Part shown: positions 4,923 through 10,505 of the stretch, one piece after another | Numbering within the stretch: position 1 is the stretch's first letter | Layout: each line of letters starts with the position of its first letter | Virus record (IMG/VR): IMGVR_UViG_3300025407_000093 | Span: 1-28,894 of that record | Strand: one strand, 5' to 3' | DNA: 28,894 bases | Source of the DNA: a virus | The notes under the pieces: generated by a model | Database searches by the model: none | What the model was told of the DNA's origin: nothing | The model's input: only the letters and a program-made list of their open reading frames with translations | Position numbers and translations under genes: made by a program

Positions 4923-4944
4923 CAACTATTTAAAAATTTTTGTA

Positions 4945-4970
4945 GGGACAAACCCTAACAAACCTTGTCT
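4945..4970. promoter_or_regulatory. Possible operator region between divergent promoters
   Basis: ACAAACC occurs twice (4948-4954 and 4958-4964), 10 bases apart, one helical turn. GACAA (4947-4951) and TTGTC (4965-4969) form an inverted repeat around the same stretch. It lies between the leftward promoter and the Cro-like gene, so it is a reasonable binding site for that protein. No binding evidence; the repeats are short. Confidence 0.35.
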
Positions 4971-4977
4971 AGTTTGA

Positions 4978-8313: not shown

Positions 8314-8352
8314 TATACTAGCGCCATGCCCCGAATTTCTTGGGGTCTTTTT
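8314..8352 (+). terminator. Terminator/attenuator hairpin before the recombination genes
   Basis: CCCC (8329-8332) and GGGG (8342-8345) pair, with a G-T and an A-T pair inside and a 5-base loop, followed by TCTTTTT. It lies between the stop at 8291 and the AGGAG ribosome site before 8363, so it would end or attenuate the upstream transcript. A TATACT at 8314-8319 could be a -10 box, but no matching -35 is seen. CTAGC and GCTAG flank the hairpin and may extend it. Confidence 0.55.
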
Positions 8353-8362
8353 AGGAGCTAGT

Positions 8363-9976: not shown

Positions 9977-10222
9977 ATGATTCCATTGATTATTTGGGCA
10001 GTCAAAGAGATTGCTGAGGATATTGCTGAGAACGAAGTTGAATCGCTGGCTGGCGGTCTAAAAGACAAGATTCTCAAATCAGCAGGCTTAGATCAAGCTG
10101 AAGTGCTGGCAGACGAAGAAGCTCAAAAACTGATGCAATCATTCAACATCTCAGACATTAGTCAAATCCGAGCGATTGAAGCAAACATTATTGCCAAGAT
10201 AAACGATAACTTGAGCAAATAA
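9977..10222 (+). CDS. Last gene of the early operon, unknown function
   Basis: 81 residues with AAGGAG before ATG 9977. Helical and acidic (IAEDIAENEVESLAGGLKDK, then a Gln/Ala/Ile-rich helix) with a mildly hydrophobic start (MIPLIIWAVKEI). Small proteins with this opening are often found at the end of phage recombination operons, without known role. After its stop comes an A-run and a hairpin that acts as a terminator only on the other strand. Confidence 0.65.
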   Translation: MIPLIIWAVKEIAEDIAENEVESLAGGLKDKILKSAGLDQAEVLADEEAQKLMQSFNISDISQIRAIEANIIAKINDNLSK

Positions 10223-10247
10223 AAAAAAGGGAACTGTTACGTTCCCT
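10221..10247 (-). terminator. Strong intrinsic terminator facing leftward
   Basis: A 7-bp perfect stem AGGGAAC/GTTCCCT (10228-10234/10241-10247) with 6-base loop. On the minus strand it is followed by eight T (10228-10221), an ideal terminator. On the plus strand it has A's before and no T-run after, so it cannot end the early operon. No minus-strand gene is seen to its right, which points to a short non-coding RNA. Confidence 0.7.
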
Positions 10248-10273
10248 AAAGTCGCTCAAATTAGCAACTGCGA
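10221..10273 (-). ncRNA. Candidate ~53-nt antisense or small RNA
   Basis: A minus-strand promoter (TTGTCT at 10303-10308, 17-base spacer, TAGAAT at 10280-10285) would start transcription near 10273, and the leftward terminator ends it at about 10221. The RNA would hold a short 5' stem (TCGC/GCGA) and the terminator hairpin. It is complementary to the 3' untranslated end of the early operon message. Predicted from promoter and terminator only; no conservation test was possible. Confidence 0.4.
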
Positions 10274-10279
10274 TATAGA

Positions 10280-10308
10280 ATTCTACTGCCAATAGGTTAA
10301 GCAGACAA
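10280..10308 (-). promoter_or_regulatory. Minus-strand sigma70-type promoter for the candidate small RNA
   Basis: TTGTCT (10303-10308) and TAGAAT (10280-10285) on the minus strand, 17 bases apart: four of six -35 positions and five of six -10 positions match consensus. No open frame with a ribosome site follows before the terminator. Confidence 0.45.
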
Positions 10309-10475
10309 TCCAGGATGGTGGACTTAGGGAGTTTTTCTGCTTTCTGCCCTAACTTGTTGAACGCCCAAATGGACTATTGGCAATGACTTGGTTAAAATTC
10401 CAATGCTGGCATTGCTATGAGCGTTTAAGGGGTTTGCTCGATTTCCTCTTGGGGTCGTTTTTTTCAATGCCAGCA
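10287..10475. other. Gene-free region rich in inverted repeats, possible structured RNA
   Basis: The gap between 10223 and 10542 contains no convincing gene. Perfect inverted repeats: TGCCAATAG (10287-10295) with CTATTGGCA (10374-10382), enclosing TTAGGG (10324-10329) with CCCTAA (10347-10352); and TGCTGGCATTG (10404-10414) with CAATGCCAGCA (10465-10475). CAATGC/GCATTG at 10401-10414 could pair instead with itself, so alternative folds exist. A weak plus-strand hairpin at 10439-10457 is followed by seven T and may end the early operon. Two tiny overlapping frames (10315-10386, 10383-10481) are not called as genes. Confidence 0.4.
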
Positions 10476-10477
10476 CC

Positions 10478-10505
10478 TTGACTAAATTCCCCATTTTGTG
10501 ATAAT
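10478..10505 (+). promoter_or_regulatory. Strong promoter for the late/structural module
   Basis: TTGACT (10478-10483), 16-base spacer, GATAAT (10500-10505) preceded by TGT, making an extended -10. Transcription would start near 10512 and give a leader of about 30 bases before the TAGGAG site of the gene at 10543. Best consensus match seen in the window. Confidence 0.7.

Follow-up and report, generated by a model that had tools for sequence, protein, structure and literature searches.

What is encoded at the boundary between the early and late genes of this freshwater phage, and on which strand? In the window, by which we mean the whole 28,894-nt stretch of viral DNA analysed here, an earlier note had predicted a minus-strand RNA of ~53 nt (about 10273 to 10221) that could act on the early message or elsewhere. 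All of the elements it named are present in the sequence. On the minus strand, TTGTCT (10308–10303) is separated by 17 nt from TAGAAT (10285–10280), which together match the promoter consensus at 9 of 12 positions, and a 7-bp hairpin (AGGGAACGTAACAGTTCCCT, 10247–10228) runs into eight Ts (TTTTTTTT, 10227–10220), with no gene or open frame between promoter and hairpin. The hairpin with its T-run (10220–10247) lies directly after the last gene of the early operon.

As a signal, the consensus-like promoter (10280–10308) proved no better than chance: promoter-like sites number 8 in the region from 8 to 13 kb vs 7.5 ± 2.6 in shuffled sequences, and 33 in the whole window vs 37.1 ± 4.8. Terminator-like hairpins are in excess across the window (7 vs 2.6 ± 1.6 in shuffles), and so are promoter–terminator pairs, with two observed against 0.37 expected from shuffles or ~0.46 given the real number of terminators, an excess that is only suggestive. 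One of these two pairs is the predicted minus-strand unit, and the other lies on the plus strand (10370–10398 to 10438). The minus-strand −10 is one half of a palindrome, TAGAATTCTA (10276–10285), whose plus-strand reading carries the same −10, and the minus-strand −35 is composed of letters belonging to P2 and J2-5 of a conserved plus-strand RNA at 10286–10383, described below.

Related viral contigs, which we fetched using proteins from both sides of the gap, allow these features to be weighed separately. Seven contigs (L002–L008) are ~94–98% identical to the window and keep everything, including the minus-strand promoter and terminator, but retention among relatives this close says little. 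Two more distant contigs, L010 and L012, whose flanking or next protein is 70–73% identical, have neither the minus-strand terminator nor the minus-strand promoter. They do retain a stretch (10287–10382, up to 96 bases) delimited by an inverted repeat; the conserved feature is therefore the plus-strand neighbour, not the minus-strand unit. In L009, which is ~70–79% identical around the gap and lacks its middle part, the minus-strand hairpin is retained, its pairs altered (GGGAATC..GATTCCC), and there is a TATAAT at a similar distance; a −35 match for this TATAAT was sought by eye and not found. On the basis of the comparison with L009, L010 and L012 and the chance-level promoter score, we regard the minus-strand hairpin as probably real and the minus-strand promoter as unsupported. 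Promoter and terminator are thus conserved together only in near-identical relatives, and of the near-ideal terminator proposed earlier it is the hairpin that stands, by way of the diverged L009, with no counterpart in L010 or L012. A minus-strand RNA, although compatible with a plus-strand one and consistent with the T8 hairpin, its changed pairs in L009 and the TATAAT there, is in our estimation quite unlikely, given a promoter no better than chance, a −35 that falls within the conserved plus-strand RNA, and the absence of the unit from L010 and L012. The expectation of a small noncoding RNA at this gene boundary is borne out on the plus strand, where the evidence falls on 10286–10383, and not for minus-strand 10221–10273.

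Two further observations concern these contigs and this hairpin. L009 (3500–3860) has the same flanking genes and retains the late promoter and both terminators but not the RNA block, which can thus come and go as a whole. Separately, TTGAGC (10211–10216) and GCTCAA (10255–10260) flank the minus-strand terminator hairpin (window 10196–10260), but L002 and L004, which read CTAAGC, have lost this pairing.

The sequence evidence identifies plus-strand 10286–10383 as one copy of a structured noncoding RNA, ~98 nt long, that phages carry. A covariance model built from phage copies (R2) matches the window at exactly these positions with 92.4 bits (E = 2e-24), a score that arises partly by construction since the near-identical L002 was in the training set. 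The RNA comprises five helices, P1–P5. P1 pairs TGCCAATAG (10287–10295) with CTATTGGCA (10374–10382), an inverted repeat that covaries at all 8 pairs counted, and is followed by the junction GUUAA (10296–10300; GUYAA in the family), a conserved motif that belonged to the search patterns of our first and third scans and not of the second. The 5′ strand of P2, GCAGA (10301–10305), pairs with TCTGC (10336–10340), with 99.2–100% of cells paired and double changes at all 5 pairs. P5 joins TCCA (10309–10312) to TGGA (10370–10373), 98–99% paired, with double changes at three of its four pairs and the fourth invariant. The stretch 10313–10329 holds GGATG and the 5′ strands of P4 (10317–10320, partner 10362–10365) and P3 (10324–10329, partner 10347–10352), both supported by covariation. 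The 17-nt hairpin loop of P3 (10330–10346) reads AGTTTT, then TCTGC, then TTTCTG, and its middle five nucleotides form P2 with the upstream strand between P1 and P5, creating a pseudoknot. The 3′ half (10347–10382) consists of P3′, a connecting loop, P4′, CAAA, P5′ and P1′, and is likewise defined by the inverted repeat and covariation. From these pairings, P1 is predicted to close the RNA, and P5, P4 and P3 to form a stacked arm.

This architecture recurs widely among uncultivated phages. Our first IMG/VR pattern, derived from the conserved block, included GUUAA and constrained one end of P2 to fixed letters; it returned 101 stretches, and 58 of 62 distinct sequences were judged true by eye. 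A second pattern that left the GUUAA motif and P2 free gave at least 120 matches, and a third, for the GUCAA variant with both P2 strands free, gave 50; together the three scans yielded >110 distinct sequences from diverse uncultivated phages. A search of cultured phages gave no real match, and two of the weak matches, which we inspected, lie inside coding genes. The copies share the order P1–GUYAA–P2–C–P5–GGAUG–P4–P3–RUUUU–P2′–UUUCU–P3′–loop–P4′–YAAA–P5′–P1′, often followed by a U-run. The invariance of GGAUG, UUUU and UUUCU was partly imposed, as these belonged to the search patterns, whereas pairing in P1, P4 and P5 was imposed by no scan and pairing in P2 was free in the second and third.

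In an alignment of 43 non-redundant copies, the paired fraction of pair cells is 93.2% vs 65.2% in shuffles. The covariation score is 0.734 vs 0.203 in shuffles, and it does not exceed 0.122 once the partners are displaced by 1–3 columns. With the GUCAA copies added (52 copies), pairing is 93.6% vs 62.3%, covariation 0.787 vs 0.199, and double-change cells number 433 vs 128 in shuffles; these shuffle controls ignore relatedness among the copies, a weakness lessened by the slide control and by the separate test in a bacterial RNA described below. P2 is 99.2% paired in the 52 copies, and each of its five pairs shows double changes. In the GUCAA scan, P2 pairs at 5 of 5 positions in 29 of 35 distinct matches; of the remaining six, two have a single P2 mismatch in an otherwise intact motif, and four resemble chance matches. 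The existence of an RNA structure is, judged from these alignments, nearly certain, and its compensatory evolution is unusually clear, the pseudoknot included. Paired columns contain 25 G-U against 1 A-C combination, an asymmetry indicating that the plus strand is the transcribed one. We rejected a coding origin, as loop lengths vary by single bases around intact stems and many copies have interrupted frames; no tRNA or tmRNA was found. In a search of the whole window against Rfam, no family reached its gathering score, and a search of open-licence papers found neither an account of the phage RNA nor any text about RF02496, the Rfam family considered next.

The Rfam model of Atu_At1 (RF02496) matches the window copy over its full length (1–108) with 23.5 bits, and L010 with 20.5 bits, where the gathering cut-off is 60. 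Stronger evidence for a link to this family came from the phage side. A first, strict pattern found nothing in 84,980 species genomes, and a looser motif pattern found 66 stretches in the same set; only three of these, all Rhizobiales loci, have GUYAA next to a matching P2, and a covariance model built solely from phage copies (R1) ranks those three first among the 66 candidates. They score 98.9–110.6 bits against RF02496 and are thus Atu_At1. R1 gave no other matches in the whole genomes of these three loci, and R2 gave a single match in 121 genomes of Rhizobiales, which is one of the three. The Atu_At1 model itself has matches in 13 of these 121 genomes, with three copies in one.

We then observed that the P2 predicted from phages holds in the bacterial RNA: across 17 Atu_At1 loci its pairing amounts to 98.8% and double changes occur in 9 cells, a level reached in 0 of 500 shuffles. 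The hairpin that Rfam draws there (GUC/GAC), in a fold that has no P2, does less well, at 88.2% paired and 3 double-change cells, and the Rfam fold of Atu_At1 is probably incomplete. The shared core, consisting of GUYAA, the P2 pseudoknot, and RUUUU and UUUCU around P2′, is present in the phage copies and in the 17 Atu_At1 loci. Both RNAs have the motif order GUYAA, P2, GGAUG, P3 5′ strand, RUUUU, P2′, UUUCU, P3′ and the same covarying pseudoknot, and their models match weakly in both directions. Atu_At1 differs in having a different 3′ half and, in the loci inspected, a longer P1 and no U-run behind it; its neighbours are varied, on chromosomes or plasmids. Because it scores below the Rfam cut-off, we did not file the window copy as a member of Atu_At1, and we take the two RNAs to be remote relatives that share the same fold.

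Three Atu_At1 copies (L327, L339 and L340) occur in Rhizobium sp. 32-5/1, two on a 1.09-Mb plasmid and one on another replicon, and their P2 sequences differ yet retain pairing, suggesting that the copies arose by duplication while selection on the pseudoknot persisted. A search for homologues in 250 genomes from the order of a Comamonadaceae MAG returned none, and shows nothing as it had no positive control; one match in 398 genomes from the phylum of that MAG was rejected, as it lacks every family motif and resembles ordinary coding sequence.

The genomic setting of the phage copies bears on what the RNA may do. They are intergenic or nearly so, with the upstream gene as little as 3–15 nt away, and the neighbours that could be classified are genes for DNA polymerase, SSB, exonuclease, NinG and HNH proteins. 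Most share the strand of the RNA; the polymerase gene next to it in L197 and L200 has the opposite orientation. In the window, the RNA comes after exonuclease and SSB-like genes and before a likely late promoter (10478–10505, TTGACT-16-GATAAT with TG before the −10, a 10/12 match), with a terminator-like hairpin followed by T7 (10439–10465) between them. This hairpin sits within an outer inverted repeat (10404–10414/10465–10475) and is aligned in L009, and the TTTTGTGATAAT of the late promoter is aligned in L009, L010 and L012. Behind P1, the longest T-run averages 4.3 in the phage copies vs 3.1 ± 0.16 in shuffles, although several copies, the window clade included, have no U-run adjoining P1. 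A −10-like TAGAAT (10276–10281) 5 nt before P1 may be a promoter of the RNA, but the window has no good −35 at 17-nt spacing upstream of it. Such −10-like boxes are only mildly enriched near P1 across all copies, and a promoter of its own for every copy is unsupported as a rule, the evidence being weak and variable among copies.

We slightly favour, on these sequence patterns, a stable small RNA that is released where replication operons end and acts through its fold, its mode of action being a guess. Such an RNA would be produced on the plus strand with the replication and recombination genes, driven by a promoter of its own or forming the 3′ end of the mRNA of these genes. Its own 3′ end would lie at the U-run after P1 in many copies and at the terminator at 10439–10465 in the window clade, and it would persist as a compact small RNA. 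GUYAA, GGAUG, RUUUU, UUUCU and CAAA would form the surface that a host protein or another partner contacts, and as these conserved loop and junction letters would provide that surface, the RNA would act in trans through its fold and not by antisense pairing. Against this reading, the neighbours differ, so context names no function, promoter evidence is weak and variable, and the window clade has no U-run right behind P1. Lambda phage 6S RNA is likewise a small RNA near the early/late boundary, but is a leader transcribed from the late promoter, whereas the window RNA precedes the likely late promoter and further copies occupy other places in replication modules.

The same T-runs could be read differently, with P1 and the U-run as a terminator that has the pseudoknotted core as its loop. 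This cis-acting 3′-end element would close replication operons, perhaps sensing a ligand or protein, and keep early transcripts out of the late promoter, which lies directly behind the element in L010 and L012 and ~95 nt behind it in the window; the enriched T-runs and the occasional 3–15-nt distance to the upstream gene also fit. We find it doubtful, since several copies, those of the window clade among them, have no U-run at P1, some lie between replication genes, where termination would be costly, and the Atu_At1 loci inspected have no U-run behind P1. The core could also be a self-cleaving ribozyme that cuts its own transcript, for example trimming the 3′ ends of replication-gene mRNAs. 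Small nucleolytic ribozymes such as pistol and twister are compact and pseudoknotted with invariant junction letters, and the phage RNA resembles them in each respect and in size, but it matches no Rfam ribozyme family and its conservation implies no cleavage site, making this highly unlikely.

Returning to the fold-based small RNA, we tentatively suggest, at somewhat less than even confidence, that these copies represent a widespread class of pseudoknotted phage RNA that shares descent with a Rhizobiales small RNA, is used by the replication modules of unrelated phages, and works by its three-dimensional fold, through binding of a conserved host factor or small molecule or through self-cleavage, and not by antisense. 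Few structured noncoding RNAs common to unrelated phages are known. This one overlaps the predicted minus-strand RNA with much better support and ties phages to the bacterial small RNA Atu_At1, and its fold, together with >100 natural variants, makes it readily accessible to probing, pull-down and cleavage tests.

Other features of these genomes were noted in passing. In L010 (3840–3980), the likely late promoter TTGACA-16-GATAAT has its −35 within the 3′ strand of P1, such that the end of the RNA and the late promoter overlap. Two terminator-like hairpins in the window are each enclosed by an outer inverted repeat: one at 10404–10475 (..TTGGGGTCG-T7, outer arms TGCTGGCATTG/CAATGCCAGCA) and one at 8317–8362 (CCCCGAATTTCTTGGGG-TCTTTTT, outer arms ACTAGC/GCTAGT), the outer 3′ arm of the latter extending into the start region of the next gene. 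A strict scan for perfect inner hairpins in outer repeats did not recover these nested terminators seen by eye. L012 has a similar nested arrangement upstream of the RNA, and the arrangement may be an attenuator-like module. In the L093 group, AGGGTTTGTCCTA stands just behind the RNA, and at 4930–4975 of the window an operator-like inverted repeat, TAGGGACAAACCCTA, precedes a small Cro-like ORF.
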